Shown: one piece after another, positions 1,902 through 11,781 of the stretch
Position numbering within the stretch: the stretch's first letter is position 1
Layout of the letters: each line of letters begins with the position of its first letter
Assembly: GCF_003862475.1 (NCBI RefSeq)
Contig: NZ_RRCO01000001.1
Span: forward strand, 620,001 to 684,000
Length of the DNA: 64,000 nucleotides
DNA from: Lachnoanaerobaculum gingivalis
GTDB taxonomy: Bacteria; Bacillota; Clostridia; Lachnospirales; Lachnospiraceae
Reading direction: 5' to 3'
Notes under the pieces: model-generated
The model's database searches: none
What the model was told of the DNA's origin: nothing
The model's input: only the letters and a program-made list of their open reading frames with translations
Made by a program: the position numbers and the translations under genes

Positions 1902-3377
1902 CTAAGAATTTTCATCCACTTTATCAACCACAATTACCTGATCAAGCAATTGGTCTTTCAATTCAATTTTGTTAACTTTTGAAAAAGAATAATCATATAT
2001 AGATGCAATAATAATCTGGTTATCTTTAAAATCCCTCTTTAAAATATTCATTATTAAATTAATATTTTCTTGATCAACTTCTTTTCCACTTGGAGAATCA
2101 AGAATTATTGGCAATTTAACATTTAAGTGTTTCTCCAGTTCTAAGATATATGCCATTTTAAATGCAAATACTGTTTTGTGAAGAACTGCACCTGTCAACT
2201 CCTTTAAATTGGATGTGAATAAATATTTTTTCGTAATACTTTCTGAATCACCAATCCCTAACTCAGTAGCATACTTAACTATGGTATTATACAAAGAAAG
2301 TACCACATCATTATCACTTCTAGATATTTTAGCAATCTGTGCTCTTAGCTGCTTTAGTTCTTTTTCCAATTTATCTATTTCTTTTTTTATTGCTACCTGA
2401 TTCATTGGTATAGCAACAATTTTCTTATCAAACGCTTCTACCAATGAATCAGATTTGAAAAAAGTGAGTTGTCCATTTTCTTTCTCTTGCTCCTTTACAA
2501 TTTTATCAATTTTAGAAACAATTTCAGCCAATTCAGATGATAATATTTTTTTCTTTGCCACCAGTAATTCAATAGAATCATTTAGTCCAACAATATTATC
2601 CTTCGTCACAGTAATGCATTGACCATCTTCTGTTTTTACCAATAATTTCATTTCGGCAACAAACTCTTGAAATTTTTTATTGCCTGTAACACTCTGATTA
2701 ATTCTACGAATTTCACGTTCTACGGCAGATTGCCTCATTCTCAATTGCTCAAGCTCAACATTATTTTTTTCTTGATAAGTTTCTTCTGTCAAACTGTTTC
2801 CACTCACACTATCCCTATACTGTGCGATGCTAAACATCTGCCTATATTTAGATAAATCCGAACTTATTTGTTTTTCTTTTACTATTAGCTCTGAACAATC
2901 TTTACCCGAAATTCCTCTTACCAGTTCATCAATATTAAAATGTATACTACCTATAACCACGCCTCGATTTAATAGCGTCCAGCCTTTTTCTTGATCGAAA
3001 TAGAATGCCCCAAGTACATTATTAAGAATATCGATGTTGTCTGTTCCAAACAATCTTGAATGTAACAAACATATCTGTTCAGGTAGTATATATATTTCCT
3101 CTTCACCATCACAAATCATAGAAATTGTATAACTATTTTCTCTAGTCAGATACACAACATTTCCCGTCTCAAGAATAAGTTCTATCTTGGTAAAACATTT
3201 TTCAAATTTTATCTTTTTTGTGCTTGGCACAGAATACCCCAATGCATATAGTATCAATCTAACTAATGTTGTCTTCCCACGGCTATTTCTCTTACTAAAT
3301 ATCAAATTAACCCCATCCTCTAAGATTATATCTCTTTCAAACAGCCCATCTCTTATATATAGAGATTTAATTAGCAC
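1902..3377 (-). CDS. SMC/ABC-type ATPase of a two-gene defence system (LmuB-like)
   Basis: 491 residues. The N-terminus has an ABC/SMC-type P-loop, RNSRGKTTLVR, with GKTT at 34-37 and the first Walker-A Gly replaced. Lys- and Glu-rich coiled-coil segments fill about residues 160-345. The C-terminal Walker B is IILDSPSG (Asp near 427), followed by KEVDQ and a strand ending IIIAS. This is the layout of the short SMC-like ATPases of Lamassu and the related ABC-effector anti-phage systems, where the ATPase senses foreign DNA and licenses a nuclease. Its start overlaps the nuclease gene by 7 bp. It is shorter than typical LmuB proteins, and no third (LmuC or middle-component) gene is present. Confidence 0.75.
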   Translation of the reverse strand: MLIKSLYIRDGLFERDIILEDGVNLIFSKRNSRGKTTLVRLILYALGYSVPSTKKIKFEKCFTKIELILETGNVVYLTRENSYTISMICDGEEEIYILPEQICLLHSRLFGTDNIDILNNVLGAFYFDQEKGWTLLNRGVVIGSIHFNIDELVRGISGKDCSELIVKEKQISSDLSKYRQMFSIAQYRDSVSGNSLTEETYQEKNNVELEQLRMRQSAVEREIRRINQSVTGNKKFQEFVAEMKLLVKTEDGQCITVTKDNIVGLNDSIELLVAKKKILSSELAEIVSKIDKIVKEQEKENGQLTFFKSDSLVEAFDKKIVAIPMNQVAIKKEIDKLEKELKQLRAQIAKISRSDNDVVLSLYNTIVKYATELGIGDSESITKKYLFTSNLKELTGAVLHKTVFAFKMAYILELEKHLNVKLPIILDSPSGKEVDQENINLIMNILKRDFKDNQIIIASIYDYSFSKVNKIELKDQLLDQVIVVDKVDENS

Positions 3378-4381
3378 ATATTCACCTCCTTCTTAATTCT
3401 ATCAATCGTGAATCTTCTTTTTATGACATTAAATATTATAATTTTAATAATAGCTTCCCGAATTTCCTCATCAATACCATCAAAATCAAAATCAGCTATA
3501 TAATCTGTCCACTTTAATTCTATAAATTGATTTAGTTTCTCATTTCCCCTTTTTGGACTTTCAAATCCACTATAATCACTGAGAATTTTTATAAAGAATT
3601 CGCATTGTTCACAATGAGAATTAATTATATCCGCATACCGATTTATAACTTCTTCATACACTCCTGAGTCAAACTGTTCTAAAAAAGAATCTTCACATTG
3701 CTCTATTTCTGTTATTTTAACAAGTATCGGCCAAATAATATCCTTCTTACTCAATTTTATGGACACATCTTTTTTTCCGCCATTATCAAAGACTTGCCAA
3801 TGCCATGTTTCCAATAATTTTTGTCCTATTCCTGAGATATTTGTATTCAAACTTCCTGCAAAAGCGTTAATACTTTCCATAATCACTTTATATCGTTCAG
3901 CTTCATCATCCGTTTCAAATGGCAGAACCTGTATTTTAAATTTATCTGTATCAAGCTTTTTATCCATCTTTGATAAGTAGTCATCGACTATTTTTTTTGC
4001 AGAAGGTGGAAGTGTATCATATTTTCTGTGCGCATGTCCATAAAATGCACTTATCGACTTATCATCATTAAAGGGATTAGGCGAATTTGTAATCATAATT
4101 AGTTCTCTGGCATTCACCTTTTCTTCCCCCTCCGCTAATGATATAAGTGACTTTTGTATATTTTTACGTACATTTGCAAAGTCAGAACTCGCTTTTTCCA
4201 CGGCCTTTGCCTGAGCCAATACCATTTCTCCAGAAGAGAGTTCTAATTCTATATCTTCACAATTCCCTTCCAAGCACAAAGTTTCTACTTCTTTTATATT
4301 TTCTAAAAAAAGAACTATTGCCGAATTAACTTGAAAATCAAATCCAAATACTACAGCATCTGCTCTTCGACTCCTTGCCAT
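3371..4381 (-). CDS. Cap4/DUF4297-like PD-(D/E)XK nuclease effector
   Basis: 336 residues. The N-terminus reads GFDFQVNSAIVLF (13-25), then a Glu-Asp pair (about 42-43) and AQAK (about 56-59). This is the E...ED...QxK layout of the Cap4/DUF4297 dsDNA endonuclease fold. The remaining 250 residues have no catalytic motif I recognise and probably contact the ATPase. In Lamassu-type systems such a nuclease is the effector that cuts DNA after phage sensing. The gene comes first in the operon, has a strong GGGAGGAG ribosome site, and is coupled to the ATPase gene by a 7-bp overlap. The family call is by motif and gene order, not by search. Confidence 0.72.
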   Translation of the reverse strand: MARSRRADAVVFGFDFQVNSAIVLFLENIKEVETLCLEGNCEDIELELSSGEMVLAQAKAVEKASSDFANVRKNIQKSLISLAEGEEKVNARELIMITNSPNPFNDDKSISAFYGHAHRKYDTLPPSAKKIVDDYLSKMDKKLDTDKFKIQVLPFETDDEAERYKVIMESINAFAGSLNTNISGIGQKLLETWHWQVFDNGGKKDVSIKLSKKDIIWPILVKITEIEQCEDSFLEQFDSGVYEEVINRYADIINSHCEQCEFFIKILSDYSGFESPKRGNEKLNQFIELKWTDYIADFDFDGIDEEIREAIIKIIIFNVIKRRFTIDRIKKEVNMC

Positions 4382-6360: not shown

Positions 6361-6400
6361 TACAAAACACTGGATAGTTTCCTCTCAGAAAACCATCCAG
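6361..6400 (-). terminator. Rho-independent terminator of the reverse transcriptase gene
   Basis: On the minus strand CTGGAT and ATCCAG (6395-6400 and 6370-6375), with further pairing inside, form a hairpin followed by TGTTTTGT. It lies about 70 bp past the RT stop. It is about 80 percent identical over roughly 45 bp to the terminator at 8106-8145 on the other side of the module. Confidence 0.7.
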
Positions 6401-6468
6401 TATTTATACTGTCACAGCAAAATTCGTATCTATGTAAATCAATATCACTCAATAATATTATAATAAAA

Positions 6469-7758
6469 CTATTTTTTACTATTATTAAGTGCTCTTCGAA
6501 TTTTAGGAATATGATTTTTCAAATCACGATATATTAATTCATCTTCACCAAAAGCATCTTCTGCATGCATAATATAAGTAAAAAAGTTACCCACCTTAGC
6601 GGTTGCTCCATGCACAGAATATTTTTTGTATAAGTTAGCCTTTCCTTCTAAATGAGGATTTTTTGATATTGATTTTGCTTTTCTGTACATTCTATAATAA
6701 TATTTACCAATCGTTTTAGATCTAACCATAATGTTTTTACCATCAAATGTAAATCCCAGAAAATTTATTACCTTTTTACTATTATCTGCATCAGACAGCA
6801 ATTTATCCCCTACATTTTCAATTATTTGTTCTTGAATTTCAAATATCTGTGTCTTATTAGGTTCTAACTGTAGTCTTGGCGTTTTCCTCAAAATATTTAT
6901 TACTTGTTCCATTACAAATATTGTATTATCTTTTTTAGGAATGACCACGATAAAATCATCGCTATATCTCCTATATATCCCACCTAATGACGTAACGTAT
7001 TCGTTAACATACTTATCTGCATCGATCATATATATATTAGCCAATACCGCACTAATTGGAGAACCTTGTGGAATTTGATAAGACTTTGTATTTTTTGAAA
7101 TATGTTTTCTGTTTTTTCTATATTCTGTTTTATCTAAAGCAATCCTTCTCTTATTGAATTCTTTTAAATTTAAGCTTGTAATCTTAAGCAGATCTTCCAA
7201 TTCCCAAGTGCTATATTTTGTAACATTTTTAAATACAGCATAATGATCCTCTGGTAAAGTGTCAAATCTCATTACCGTACACCATTGTCTCTTTAAATAT
7301 TCATGATCTAAATTATCAAAAAAACCTGTAAAATCTCCTATCATTACATATGCATCACCAAGTTCTCGTATGTAATCAAAAGCTTCTCTTGCGATATGAA
7401 TATTACTTTTTTGCAAATTTGTCCGATATGCAACAGAAACCGAATCTATACCTTCTTTATCTAAATATAGGTTATAGCTCTCATTTAAAATTGCACTATA
7501 AAACTGATAAATACACCTATCAATGTGCGCAGCATAACAGATCTCCCTTTCCTTTGATTTTTTCCCCTTCTGTTTATTATATTTATTTATTTTCATCACA
7601 TAATGAATAAACGGATAGAATCCATGATGAGCAACTTTATCTGGATTCGTAACATATCCGGCCGCTTTGGATATATCCATCCTCAAATCAAAATGTGCAT
7701 ATCCTTTTTTACTCTTTTCAATAACCTTTGGATCAGAAATCCAGTCTTTGGCATTCAT
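6469..7758 (-). CDS. Defence-associated reverse transcriptase, DRT2-like
   Basis: 429 residues from the ATG at 7758, which has AGGAG 6 nt upstream; a longer in-frame start at 7791 lies inside the leader RNA hairpin and has no ribosome site. RT motifs are GDFTGFFDNLDH (catalytic Asp at 142), IPQGSPISAVLANIY (230-244) and the active-site box YSDD (265-268). No maturase, endonuclease or retron msr/msd features are present. The N-terminus (GYAHFDLRM, HHGFYPFIHYV, EREICYAAHIDRCIYQFY) resembles the UG2/DRT2 class as far as I can recall. The upstream RNA at 7778-8065 is its probable template. DRT2 enzymes make concatemeric cDNA that becomes a toxic gene during phage infection. The exact class should be confirmed by phylogeny. 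Confidence 0.85.
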   Translation of the reverse strand: MNAKDWISDPKVIEKSKKGYAHFDLRMDISKAAGYVTNPDKVAHHGFYPFIHYVMKINKYNKQKGKKSKEREICYAAHIDRCIYQFYSAILNESYNLYLDKEGIDSVSVAYRTNLQKSNIHIAREAFDYIRELGDAYVMIGDFTGFFDNLDHEYLKRQWCTVMRFDTLPEDHYAVFKNVTKYSTWELEDLLKITSLNLKEFNKRRIALDKTEYRKNRKHISKNTKSYQIPQGSPISAVLANIYMIDADKYVNEYVTSLGGIYRRYSDDFIVVIPKKDNTIFVMEQVINILRKTPRLQLEPNKTQIFEIQEQIIENVGDKLLSDADNSKKVINFLGFTFDGKNIMVRSKTIGKYYYRMYRKAKSISKNPHLEGKANLYKKYSVHGATAKVGNFFTYIMHAEDAFGEDELIYRDLKNHIPKIRRALNNSKK

Positions 7759-7893
7759 ATTTTCTCCTAAATTTGCAATACCCATCAGCATGGAGGATAG
7801 CGTTCCTTAGCTGATGGGTATACACTTAATCTTAGTAATCTTTATGATTGACTAATGTCAATATTTGATTGCTAGCTATCCTGTTGATGCAAT

Positions 7894-8037
7894 ACTTAAT
7901 TATGTTATAATCAAGCAGGAGGACAACATTATGTTCTTAACTATCTTATTATTAGTCCTGACCGAATTGGTCATCTGTACTAACAGACAGGCTCCGACCT
8001 TCTCTTATGAGTTGGTTACAGAACTGTTGACAACAAT
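7894..8037 (+). other. neo: Predicted cDNA repeat unit encoding the never-ending neo ORF (48 codons per unit)
   Basis: The plus strand, complementary to the ncRNA, carries AGGAGGA (7917-7923), an 8-nt spacer and ATG (7931-7933). From there a frame runs open to a TAA at 8060-8062, outside the unit. CAAT occurs at 7890-7893 and again at 8034-8037, an offset of exactly 144 nt. A head-to-tail copy joined there keeps the frame (144 = 3 x 48) and contains no stop. The repeat begins MFLTILLLVLTELV and is strongly hydrophobic and helix-prone. The other two plus-strand frames contain stops. In the chromosome the ORF is only about 43 codons and lacks a proper promoter, so it should be silent until reverse-transcribed. 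Confidence 0.8.
7903..8032 (+). promoter_or_regulatory. Split sigma-A promoter that is assembled only in the concatemer
   Basis: A perfect extended -10 (TGtTATAAT, 7903-7911) lies just upstream of the neo ribosome site. A perfect -35, TTGACA (8027-8032), lies near the far end of the unit, in the wrong order for the chromosome. When 8037 is joined to 7894 the spacer is 5 + 12 = 17 bp, the ideal length. The chromosomal copy has only a poor TTGATG (7884-7889) with 16-bp spacing before the -10, so it is expected to be weak. Confidence 0.8.
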
Positions 8038-8071
8038 CTCCATCCCTTACAACTACTTGTAAGGCATTAAC

Positions 8072-8100
8072 ATAATACCACATTTTTTTGTTTTTTTCAA
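8072..8100 (-). promoter_or_regulatory. Promoter of the ncRNA-RT transcript
   Basis: On the minus strand TTGAAA (8095-8100) and TATTAT (8072-8077) are 17 bp apart. The start would fall near 8065, directly before the first hairpin of the ncRNA. It sits immediately after the upstream terminator, so the module is a compact, self-contained transcription unit. Confidence 0.75.
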
Positions 8101-8105
8101 TTTGT

Positions 8106-8145
8106 AAAAAACACCAGATAATCTCCCTTTCAGGAAACCATCCGG
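8106..8145 (-). terminator. Terminator upstream of the DRT2-like module
   Basis: On the minus strand an imperfect hairpin, CCGGAT...ATCTGG with inner pairing, is followed by TGTTTTTTAC. It would end transcription coming from the MazG-like gene. It is a near copy of the terminator at 6361-6400. Confidence 0.65.
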
Positions 8146-8329: not shown

Positions 8330-8650
8330 CTACAGCTCCGTATATTTCGCTGCATTTCCTTTTGCTTTATCCACCGGCTACTTTGCTTCATTCTGTTTCA
8401 TCTTCATGTTCACAATTTCATCAGCATCCAGTTCTAATTTATCTAGAAGATTTTGTGAATAAACAAGTATATCTGCCAGTTCTTCTTTTATATGCTGCAA
8501 ATCATACTCTGTATCACTCCACTGAAAACACTCCAACAACTCTGCAGCCTCAATCACAATCGATTTTGCAAGATTTGCTTGACTATGAAATTGATTCCAC
8601 TTCCGGTCTTCTGTAAATTTGCGGATACGCTCTATTGTTTTTTCCTTCAC
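8330..8650 (-). pseudogene. MazG-like nucleotide pyrophosphohydrolase interrupted by an amber codon
   Basis: From a GTG at 8650 the frame encodes an all-alpha NTP-PPase: EAAELLECFQW and KEELADILVYSQNLLDKL carry the metal-binding Glu/Asp pattern. It then reads MKQNEAK, TAG (8378-8380), PVDKAKGNAAKYTEL. The family ends KYPVEKAKGNAxKYTEL, so the conserved Tyr codon has become TAG and the last 15 residues are cut off. The catalytic helices are complete, so a truncated protein might fold. MazG-like enzymes hydrolyse non-canonical or excess nucleoside triphosphates, some in phage or stress responses. Position next to an old defence island suggests decay after acquisition. Confidence 0.75.
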
Positions 8651-8670: not shown

Positions 8671-8850
8671 TTTTTGTTTTAAGGACTTCTTAAAATATTG
8701 CGCCAAGGCAACATCCGTGCAATAATTTTATATTTTCATATAATCTTGTTTCCAAACAATCATTTTCTGTATCAATCATAAATCCACTTTTTGTACCTGC
8801 ATAAATAATCATGTATTCACCCCACACACCATATTGTTTTGTTCAATTTC
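8671..8850 (-). pseudogene. Fragment of an unrecognised gene upstream of the MazG-like gene
   Basis: The minus strand encodes GVWGEYMIIYAGTKSGFMID and then a stretch with LYENIKLLHGCCL. A frame change leads into AQYFKKSLKQK and a stop at 8671, just before the MazG start. No start codon or family is recognised. It looks like the C-terminal end of a gene once in an operon with the MazG-like gene. Confidence 0.4.
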
Positions 8851-9734
8851 AGTAGGCAATCCTAAAATAATACAAATATGCTTTATATTTATCTTGTGCT
8901 GTCAGACAGGTGTCGGTCAAATAACCTTTTTCGTTGTCCCATTCCTTCAATCCACGGTAATAGAACATTTTCAGATTGTCATCAATAATAAATGGAACAA
9001 TATTGTATTTCAGACACTCCTTAAACATAATCAATCCTCCCACACTACCGTTACCGTCCTTGAACGGATAGATTCGCTCAAACTTCACATGGAAGTCCAG
9101 AATATCTTCAAATGTCTTTTCTTCCTTATCGTTATATTCCGTCAGCAGGATCTTCATTTTATCGGCAACTTCTTCCGGAATGGCTGTATCCATACCACCA
9201 ACTTCATTCGGGAGTTTCTTATAATTGCCAACAGCAAACCAATCTTTTCTGGAATCGCTGGTGCCATTCTTCAAAACCAAGTGAAGTTCTTTGATGAACT
9301 TCTCGGTCAGAGACGCTTTTGCGTGATCAATAATCATATCAATGCAACGGAAGTGATTTGCTATTTCAATCACGTCATCCACATTCAGCACTTCTTTTTC
9401 TACACCGATGGTGTTGGTTTCAAAAATATACCTAGTTTGATTGTATGTCAAGCGGCTTCCTTCCATATAGTTAGAATTATAGGTCAAATCAATCTGTGTC
9501 TTATGATAACACCGAAGTATTTACTTGCCTTTTGCTCTTTCAGAATATCCAACAGAGTAATCGGTTCTTCTTTTCTTTTGTTGGTGCGCTCCGGTTTCTC
9601 TGCGTTTTCCGGAATGTTCCATGTCTTACCGGTAAGAAACGCACCGTTCACACGCCCTTGGCACAGTAGTTTCTGACACTACGCTCTGACATATTCCATT
9701 TTTTTGCTATTTTAGCAACTAAAAGGTATTTCAT
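8849..9734 (-). pseudogene. Fic-domain protein, inactivated by frameshifts and active-site changes
   Basis: The reading begins at 9734 with MKYLLVAKIAKKWNMSERSV, a helix-turn-helix. It loses frame after YCAKG (1-nt loss) and again near KYFG (about 4 nt lost), before the intact Fic stretch from 9487 down (SNYMEGSRLTYNQT, then the core). The catalytic motif, normally HPFxDGNGRxxR, reads YPFKDGNGSVGG: the essential His is Tyr and both Arg are lost. Fic proteins AMPylate target proteins, often as toxins. This copy is dead at two levels. The residual 212-codon ORF (8849-9487) starts only at a TTG. Confidence 0.85.
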
Positions 9735-9832: not shown

Positions 9833-10642
9833 TCACTTTTTTTCAGCCGATACATCAAATACATCTATCACCCCTCTAAACTCCTCTTCCAACGCATACC
9901 AATCAGTATTCCTGTCATCCTCCATTGTTTCCACAATTGCCTTATAATAGTCCAACTTCTCTTCTATATAATTATTTATCACCTCAACCCTTGGGCCTTT
10001 TTGGGCTTCAGACATTCTTACCTTCTTTGCAAGCAAATCTTCTACTGCCGCCTTCATATCTTCCTCAAGAACAGCATTAACTAATTCATAAAAAAGTACC
10101 GGTGGCGGGCATTTCTTTTCATCAATCCATTTGCAGGCAAGAATAGGTCTAAGTACATAAAAATACTTTTTGTAATTTACCATATCAGCACATAGATAAT
10201 CGTAGTAATTCTTTTTTGCCGTACCGTAGTAATGGTAAAGTGCCGATTTGCATGCAAAGTATTTGGATGCCGTTTTGTCGTAAAGCTCCTTCCATTCATC
10301 CGTAGTATAATACACAATAGGAGAATTGCTCCACTCAAATAATGTGGCATTGGACTTGTGAAAATGCTTCAATGCCTTTTTTATATCCCAACCGTTGATA
10401 TCAAGCACCTCGTTTAATTCCCAATCGATAAAATCCTTATTCTCACGAAGGGATAAATAAAAGTCTTTATTTCTTACATAGATAAATCTTACATCATAGT
10501 CACTGTCAGGTGAAGCAAATCCCCATGCTCTGCTGCCGGATTCAATCGCATGTAACACTTTTATATTCTCTTTTTCTTCTATCTCTCTGAGCTTCATTCG
10601 AATCAATTCTTCTATATTTCCTTCAAAATTCTCATATCTCAT
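9833..10642 (-). CDS. Pol-beta superfamily nucleotidyltransferase (YcgL/COG3541-like)
   Basis: 269 residues. The nucleotidyltransferase signature GSRAWGF (36-42) is followed by SDYDVRFIY with the metal-binding pair Asp48/Asp50. The C-terminal region is helical. The family resembles B. subtilis YcgL; it probably transfers nucleotides to RNA or protein, but the substrate is unknown. The start overlaps the preceding nucleotidyltransferase gene by 11 bp, so the two are co-translated. The two proteins share the fold but are not close copies. Confidence 0.85.
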   Translation of the reverse strand: MRYENFEGNIEELIRMKLREIEEKENIKVLHAIESGSRAWGFASPDSDYDVRFIYVRNKDFYLSLRENKDFIDWELNEVLDINGWDIKKALKHFHKSNATLFEWSNSPIVYYTTDEWKELYDKTASKYFACKSALYHYYGTAKKNYYDYLCADMVNYKKYFYVLRPILACKWIDEKKCPPPVLFYELVNAVLEEDMKAAVEDLLAKKVRMSEAQKGPRVEVINNYIEEKLDYYKAIVETMEDDRNTDWYALEEEFRGVIDVFDVSAEKK

Positions 10643-11654
10643 CTCGAATCACCCTTTCATTTATTGTCATTACAAGTTCCTGAACTCTCTTAAAATCCGG
10701 CTCAGCCGGAAGATCTGTGTGCTCAGCCGCATAATGTAAACGTCTTTCATACTCTCTCATCATATCATAGAAGCTGTCCGAAAAAGTTCCCTCATCTGTT
10801 TGATATTTTCCAAAGCGGATATCCATCAGCAGATTATGTTCCTTTTCTCTGTATGTATTGATTTCTCCCTTTTCCAGTATATCAATGGCCATCATAAATA
10901 ATCTGATAAGATGCATGGCGTGCTTATTCAGATGAAGATCATCTTTCTTTTTATTTCTCTTACCTATTTTATCATAGTCTTTTACAACATTTGACATTGT
11001 ATTCCACATACTTGCATAATCTCTTAGCGGATAATGATTCAAATTCGCATTGATAAATATCTCTGTTTCAAGCTCAGGATTAATCGCCTTGTCAATAAAA
11101 ATTTCCAGACTTCCGTTTTCAAAGCTCTTATAGCTTGAGTTAAAACTGTACATTGCATTCTTTACAGAATTAAAAATATGCTGCTCTTTTTCACTTTGCG
11201 GAAATGTGTCTCTGGCAAGTGCATTCTGTAATCTTCTTAGCTGTGCATCCGCATATCCTCCAAATGATTGAATAGCCCTTTTAGATAAAAACAATCTTTT
11301 ATTATCCAGAAGCATCTGTCCTATATCATTAAGATAGAGATAATTATCCGGTGCAAGGCCAAGCAACTCTATTGTATTCGGATTGCAACTTAAAAGTAAA
11401 TTCACCATTTTATTGAATGCATAGATAACGGTATCCGTATTATCATCCACATACTGTTCAAACTGCGTAAGTCCTATAAGATCGGACTTTTGGTTTAGAG
11501 TAATTCCTCTTATATCTATATCACTGCCTTCTATATTTGTCCCATATGCATAGCTTCCTGCCAGTCCAAGAAGTATCACATGCTTCCCAAGATGTTCATT
11601 AGTATTTATAAAATCATATTCCGGTTTATTTAAAATCGCTTTGTAGTCGGTCAT
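10632..11654 (-). CDS. Pol-beta superfamily nucleotidyltransferase
   Basis: 340 residues from the ATG at 11654, chosen for its GGAGG five bases upstream. Signature GLAGSYAYGTN (30-40) with Asp45/Asp47 in SDIDIRG. The rest is alpha-helical with a charged segment near KRNKKKDD. Function is unassigned; adjacent nucleotidyltransferases of this type have been proposed to work in RNA repair or as AMP-transferring toxins or antitoxins. A copy of its first 17 codons survives as a fragment at 15638-15688, showing a paralogue once existed nearby. Confidence 0.82.
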   Translation of the reverse strand: MTDYKAILNKPEYDFINTNEHLGKHVILLGLAGSYAYGTNIEGSDIDIRGITLNQKSDLIGLTQFEQYVDDNTDTVIYAFNKMVNLLLSCNPNTIELLGLAPDNYLYLNDIGQMLLDNKRLFLSKRAIQSFGGYADAQLRRLQNALARDTFPQSEKEQHIFNSVKNAMYSFNSSYKSFENGSLEIFIDKAINPELETEIFINANLNHYPLRDYASMWNTMSNVVKDYDKIGKRNKKKDDLHLNKHAMHLIRLFMMAIDILEKGEINTYREKEHNLLMDIRFGKYQTDEGTFSDSFYDMMREYERRLHYAAEHTDLPAEPDFKRVQELVMTINERVIRDEI

Positions 11655-11781
11655 AATACCTCCATTCCTTATCAAAAGCCATCAGAATCATTTAATTATA
11701 AAATCAGATTTTACATTGAAAGCTTATCTACTTTAAAAATTATCTATTTGACTTTAAAATTCTTTGTACATATTAACAGTT

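Follow-up and report, generated by a model that had tools for sequence, protein, structure and literature searches.

The closest described system to the locus studied here is the DRT2 reverse transcriptase (RT) of Klebsiella pneumoniae (KpnDRT2; PDB 9c0i), for which the neo mechanism itself and its broad conservation are already known (PMC11100668, PMC12039810; 2024). According to the available parts of PMC12039810, the Klebsiella DRT2 non-coding RNA (ncRNA) opens with a handle hairpin at its 5' end, followed by the template and, towards the 3' end, a pseudoknotted region, and the Neo protein has a hydrophobic bias; the available parts of PMC11100668, a 2024 preprint, describe Neo as paired helices. 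The same parts of the preprint report that Neo annotation was harder in more divergent DRT2 clades, for which alternative mechanisms were suggested. It is for this reason that we consider of interest the locus described below, from the window (the whole stretch of 64,000 nucleotides analysed). The DRT2 group corresponds to the UG2 RTs. These are among the RTs more widely distributed in bacterial phyla (PMC4244168), with one UG2 RT in a Streptococcus (PMC8934634), in the portions of these papers available. The main texts of PMC11100668 and PMC12039810 contained no word beginning with 'clostrid' or 'firmicutes', and the available passages of literature with both UG2 and Clostridi- wording dealt with UG2 in general, or with Clostridium in another context. 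The earlier note, which knew of no clostridial examples of this kind, needs correcting as regards relatives: an Rfam family (RT-6) exists, PADLOC and NCBIfam both name the RT, and UG2 RTs are described in the literature.

The RT is encoded as follows.

6469..7758, minus strand: DRT2 reverse transcriptase, an open reading frame of 429 aa with YSDD present

The family of this protein is Drt2, as given by PADLOC (PDLC03757, 4.6e-144), by the NCBIfam Drt2 equivalog NF041746, for which it scored 415.3 bits and passed the cut-off of 390, and by a phmmer comparison with Klebsiella DRT2 (3.1e-68). We obtained the same assignment from the predicted fold, with the AlphaFold2 model (12-row alignment, mean pLDDT 86.2) matching Klebsiella DRT2 best (PDB 9c0i, E 2.2e-32, TM 0.79, 32% identity) and DRT9 second best (E 1.4e-11). 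Sub-threshold matches to the models of group II and retron RTs could point to a plain RT of one of these two kinds (group II intron, retron) whose leader RNA happens to have an open reading frame on its opposite strand; this explanation is already contradicted by the equivalog score, by the distance between the first and second fold matches and by the group II maturase model, which places the protein outside the group II intron RTs (84.2 bits, the cut-off being 300), and we regard it as practically untenable.

Upstream of the RT we identified a template ncRNA with its predicted promoter and structural elements.

7779..8066, minus strand: template ncRNA, about 290 nt, predicted 5' end near 8066
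8072..8100, minus strand: predicted promoter of the ncRNA and RT, TTGAAA (8095-8100), 17 bp, TATTAT (8072-8077)
7994..8066, minus strand: match to Rfam RF03027 (RT-6 RNA), 73.9 bits, gathering cut-off 46.7
8045..8064, minus strand: 5' handle hairpin CCUUACA/UGUAAGG, covariation in 14 sequences
7875..7881, minus strand: pseudoknot arm GGAUAGC, pairing with 7795-7801, changes on both sides in 7 of 7 pairs
7795..7801, minus strand: pseudoknot arm GCUAUCC, within the loop of the 3' hairpin
7779..7820, minus strand: 3' scaffold hairpin UACCCAUCAGC/GCUGAUGGGUA, covariation in 11 sequences

The RNA start is predicted near 8066 because the promoter-like TTGAAA-17-TATTAT sits just upstream, and promoter-like sequences also lie upstream of the RNA in several relatives. 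The RT-6 RNA reportedly comes from a 2017 paper; our literature search found no paper using the term. A covariance-model search of the ncRNA, as the earlier note had proposed, returned the RT-6 match, and in the host genome the window locus was the single match to this family.

The structures of the handle and the scaffold, drawn from the window's own sequence, were scored across the aligned relatives. In the handle (14 sequences), 99.0% of cells were paired and 15 cells were changed on both sides; in the scaffold with its pseudoknot (11 sequences), 94.9% were paired, against 32-51% in slid controls, and 15 of the 18 pairs, including all 7 of the pseudoknot, were changed on both sides, in 36 such cells. 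The scaffold score is lowered by L052 and L059, which were retained despite pseudoknot arms that look misaligned. None of 500 shuffles was as high for either element on pairing, both-side changes or covariation score, and the number of pair types was unexceptional for the scaffold (125/500 shuffles as high; 9/500 for the handle). The RNA structure covaries, and the predicted ncRNA follows the published DRT2 layout of 5' handle hairpin, template and pseudoknotted 3' scaffold. A basal stem at the template border, like Klebsiella SL2, was inconsistent by eye and is not claimed. The ncRNA analysis took in neither the 23 weak RT relatives L010-L032 nor the weak viral loci L060-L068.

On the strand opposite the RNA, the template carries the elements of a gene in permuted order.

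7894..8037, no strand assigned: template region, equal to one 144-bp neo repeat unit, bounded by CAAT
8027..8032, plus strand: junction promoter -35, TTGACA, from sequence reading
7903..7911, plus strand: junction promoter extended -10, TGTTATAAT, with TG at 7903-7904 and TATAAT at 7906-7911
8034..8037, plus strand: jump motif copy 1, CAAT (AUUG in the RNA), from sequence reading
7890..7893, plus strand: jump motif copy 2, CAAT (AUUG in the RNA), from sequence reading
7917..7923, plus strand: Shine-Dalgarno sequence AGGAGGA, from sequence reading
7931..8037, plus strand: first part of the Neo frame from its ATG (7931-7933), continuing at 7894 in the concatemer

Read along the plus strand, the order is CAAT, the unit border, ACTTAATTATGT TATAAT ... 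AGGAGGA ... ATG ... TTGACA ACAAT. Joining 8037 to 7894 sets 5 + 12 = 17 bp between TTGACA and TATAAT, with TG one base upstream of the latter, forming an extended -10; the promoter is complete only at this head-to-tail join, and is absent from the genome sequence. In the joined unit AGGAGG stands 8 nt 5' of the ATG, and exactly one frame is stop-free, that of 48 codons containing the ATG, with the predicted period of 144 being divisible by three, so that the reading frame is kept through the joins. The short border repeat that would allow template jumping is present at both template ends, as CAAT/AUUG. A local hairpin around the -10 was considered as a shared feature and rejected: its stems measured 3-8 bp across 21 loci, where the null distribution had a median of 4 and a 90th percentile of 6. 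The earlier note had proposed a complete DRT2/neo module here, and every element that it named was recovered by direct reading and a scripted re-check, including the 144-nt tandem unit 7894-8037, joined by CAAT, with its 17-bp promoter and endless open reading frame. The RT family, ncRNA layout, junction promoter and stop-free frame support that reading; the placement of the RT inside DRT2, on which the note had staked it, stands with the PADLOC and NCBIfam Drt2 matches given above and the grouping with DRT2-like RTs in the tree below.

On all the features testable in sequence, the locus is a DRT2, and its best explanation is very probably a DRT2 abortive-infection system that builds a hidden neo gene. 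In such a system the RT would bind the ncRNA through the 5' handle hairpin and pseudoknotted 3' scaffold, by analogy with Klebsiella DRT2 and, once primed, would copy the 144-nt template up to its 5' border. There the 3' end of the cDNA (...CAAT) would re-anneal to the second AUUG copy, located at the template's 3' border, from which copying would restart and generate head-to-tail cDNA. Phage infection would lead to second-strand synthesis, after which each junction would hold a complete and presumably active promoter, driving expression of a stop-free repeated message and of the hydrophobic repeat protein Neo, a putative toxin that would arrest the infected cell and so serve defence.

We investigated whether the junction arrangement recurs in the 37 retrieved loci that had a DRT2-like RT preceded by sufficient DNA; the search covered the upstream region of each, on the strand complementary to the RNA. 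The full rule requires at most 2 promoter mismatches, a spacer of 17, a border repeat of at least 3 nt, a period divisible by 3, an open frame and a start with a Shine-Dalgarno sequence; the strict rule is the same with at most 1 promoter mismatch. A blind choice, made without the frame criteria, ranked candidates by promoter match, repeat length and then closeness to spacer 17, with ties broken toward spacer 17 (which mattered for L036, L046 and L128 among the 21 loci below). Twenty-four plasmid matches were found, of which 8 were opened; one of these 8, L129, with only 58 bases before the match, was excluded from the rule.

The blind choice gave a spacer of 17 with at most 1 promoter mismatch in 21/37 loci, and in 19 of these 21 the period, between 111 and 165, was a multiple of three and the frame was open. 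The exceptions were L036 (period 176) and L128 (period 145), the latter fitting only with a 16-bp spacer (period 144, open). The strict rule was passed by 18/37 DRT2-like loci, the window's own included, against 1/624 overlapping window stretches. The full rule was passed by 22/37 loci on the neo strand (in two of them, L057 and L049, the passing junction looks accidental), by 0/37 on the other strand and 0/72 downstream of RTs, and by 5/300 shuffles of the window's own locus region and 97/11,100 over all 37 loci; as 44/624 other window stretches (overlapping, both strands) also pass, this looser rule alone is weak. The rule is conserved across relatives. The repeated cDNA of DRT2 could instead work as noncoding DNA or RNA, with the junction promoter and frame incidental, much as the product of DRT9 is a toxic homopolymer DNA and that of DRT10 a tandem-repeat DNA whose role is unclear (PMC12632851, available parts); L036, which keeps the RT, handle and pseudoknot without a junction promoter or open frame, would fit this. 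Against it stand the 19/21 blind junctions divisible by three and open, and the start with Shine-Dalgarno sequence also present in the 18/37 strict-rule loci, and we hold it to be highly improbable.

On the window's side of the RT tree, the blind choice gave a junction of this kind for 17/21 RTs; among the remainder, L036 has an intact RT and scaffold with no junction promoter and with stops in the template, L048 and L049 showed no convincing junction, and L057 has a 2-nt repeat only, with period 192. The L036 locus (2842-3166, minus strand), sister to L002, has an intact RT, handle and pseudoknot, and its template has neither an open frame nor a correctly placed -10 and contains repeated TTTGC/CAATT pieces; it may be a decayed neo or give a different product. 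The frames of L002 and L051 are open, but neither locus has a start codon passing the Shine-Dalgarno filter. L037 was missed by the blind choice, with a period of 87 under the frame-aware rule; its unit at 1250-1336, of 87 nt or 29 codons and bordered by the 8-nt repeat GTGCAACA, is the shortest predicted one among those that pass the strict rule. After-the-fact fits under relaxed or frame-aware rules were found in L005 (120), L071 (87), L057 (192), L037 (87), L130 (129) and L073 (138), L005 being a Kpn-clade relative whose 120-nt open period under the relaxed rule, with a TGT end facing TAT, equals the Klebsiella repeat length reported in PMC12039810. Off the window's tree side, L006, L007, L008, L009, L127 and others gave no convincing junction under the blind, relaxed or frame-aware rules. 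We additionally identified DRT2-like loci on phage or viral contigs (L045, Clostridioides phage HGP05; L044, L046, L059 and L070), each with neo architecture at its blind-choice junction.

The predicted Neo of the window is hydrophobic and reads MFLTILLLVLTELVICTNRQAPTFSYELVTELLTTILNYVIIKQEDNI per repeat. By eye, each Neo unit of the window's clade runs from a hydrophobic stretch through a polar turn into a second stretch; 7/9 units have LTT(I/M) at their end, the part of the frame that reads through the -35. Neo pN/pS was 0.47-0.79, below 1 in 7/7 chosen pairs; because the protein-guided alignments bias this value downward, it supports conservation of Neo weakly.

An IQ-TREE phylogeny of 35 RTs, all DRT2-like, with the truncated or partial L058, L047 and L072 excluded, placed the window RT on a side of 21 rows, split with support 100/99 from 14 rows that include Klebsiella DRT2. 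The window's side contains L002-L004, L048 and L049 (Bacillota), other genomes of the same phylum and 4 phage or viral contigs; the divide does not strictly follow phylum, as L037, of the window's phylum, falls on the Klebsiella side. Jump motifs of CAAT, ATAC and AAAC type (AUUG, GUAU and GUUU in the RNA) each required one change on the tree. The CAAT type comprised 7 labelled rows (CAAT in three, and CAATC, ACAAT, AAT and AATA in one each), the ATAC type 4 rows (support 86/79) and the AAAC type 4 rows (support 100/99), with the unlabelled L059 (ATA), L057 (AT) and L036 beside the CAAT-type group and L035 (TCAT) beside the AAAC type. As the labels were taken from the motifs found, this fit checks consistency and does not amount to an independent test.

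The window locus falls outside the KpnDRT2-related clade, having AUUG and not ACA, with its RT across the 100/99 split. In our judgement, ACA is a mark of the KpnDRT2-related clade, and not of DRT2 as a whole. In the window's branch of DRT2, the jump signal has probably changed from ACA to clade-specific AUUG, GUAU or GUUU and the geometry been preserved (a 17-bp spacer in the junction promoter, a repeat length that is a multiple of three and a frame free of stops); neo would then be findable in divergent clades by geometry alone.

The locus lies among several other genes of note. A candidate defence pair (1902-4381, minus strand) matches PDC-M46B (LmuB-like ATPase, 1.1e-198) and PDC-M46A (2.4e-148); a Fic-domain protein (8849-9487, minus strand) matches the candidate defence family PDC-S04 (3.2e-97), near a MazG-like gene at 8378-8650; and an RlaP-type nucleotidyltransferase (9833-10642, minus strand) is overlapped by a gene (10632-11675, minus strand) similar by eye. 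IS66 pieces and an IS1634 transposase surround the locus. Such surroundings would suit a decayed or silent DRT2 copy within an IS-rich defence island, and decay of this sort does happen: L058 (1009-2106), with its RT frame shortened to 204 aa and the -35 of its neo promoter altered too, is probably a decaying DRT2 locus. The window RT is instead open over 429 aa with YSDD, and its RNA structure and junction are intact; we find decay or silence improbable.

The distribution of DRT2 was patchy. It was present in the window's own genome and in 0/60 near relatives, in 4/398 genomes of a phylum sample (own genome included) and in 7/348 genomes sampled from another class, of which the phylum sample had already yielded one. 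Relatives of the RT also occur on phage or viral contigs, among them a record of a Clostridioides phage. RT-6 matched at E 0.001 or better in 7/391 genomes of a class-wide sample, own genome included, with 3 over the cut-off. The weak matches of L041-L043 (E 1e-4 to 6e-4, below gathering) were taken as chance; in the stretches examined they had no neighbouring RT frame, and LexA-like and aconitase-like frames were seen by eye. A pattern scan of viral-contig DNA gave 51 loci (L075-L125), likewise attributed to chance, with 0 among the DRT2-like tblastn matches (E <=1e-15). A single-protein viral scan found no relative, and searching E. coli genomes at the nucleotide level with the RT gene returned no match.

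Taken as a sequence-based prediction, these results extend RNA-templated gene creation from Klebsiella-like systems to a distant DRT2 branch spanning several Bacillota (Oscillibacter, Clostridium and others) and phage records. They provide a simple criterion by which hidden neo genes can be sought and a candidate functional reading for the Rfam family RT-6, and make testable the question of whether the RT reads a fixed motif to make the jump or whether any suitably spaced short repeat will do.

Compared with known systems, the window ncRNA matches all 75 positions of Rfam RF03027 (RT-6) with its 5' 73 nt, a match that covers the handle and template start only, the Rfam entry making no mention of Neo or the scaffold. 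DRT9 and DRT10 (PMC12483538, PMC12632851) resemble the window locus in having an RT-associated ncRNA that gives repetitive cDNA; they differ in making protein-primed homopolymer or short tandem-repeat DNA, with no hidden gene mentioned in the available parts of these papers. From KpnDRT2, as far as the available parts of its two papers describe it, the window locus differs in its RT, which lies across the 100/99 split and is 32% identical in structural alignment, in its jump motif (AUUG against ACA; PMC11100668) and in its repeat period (144 against 120; PMC12039810). The two share RT family and fold, an ncRNA upstream of the RT (281 nt in KpnDRT2, about 290 nt predicted in the window) with 5' handle, template and pseudoknotted 3' scaffold, a TTGACA-17-TATAAT junction promoter and a stop-free repeat divisible by three. 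The new part is modest but clear: as predicted from sequence, the neo architecture persists in the part of the DRT2 tree remote from KpnDRT2, with a different jump signal.
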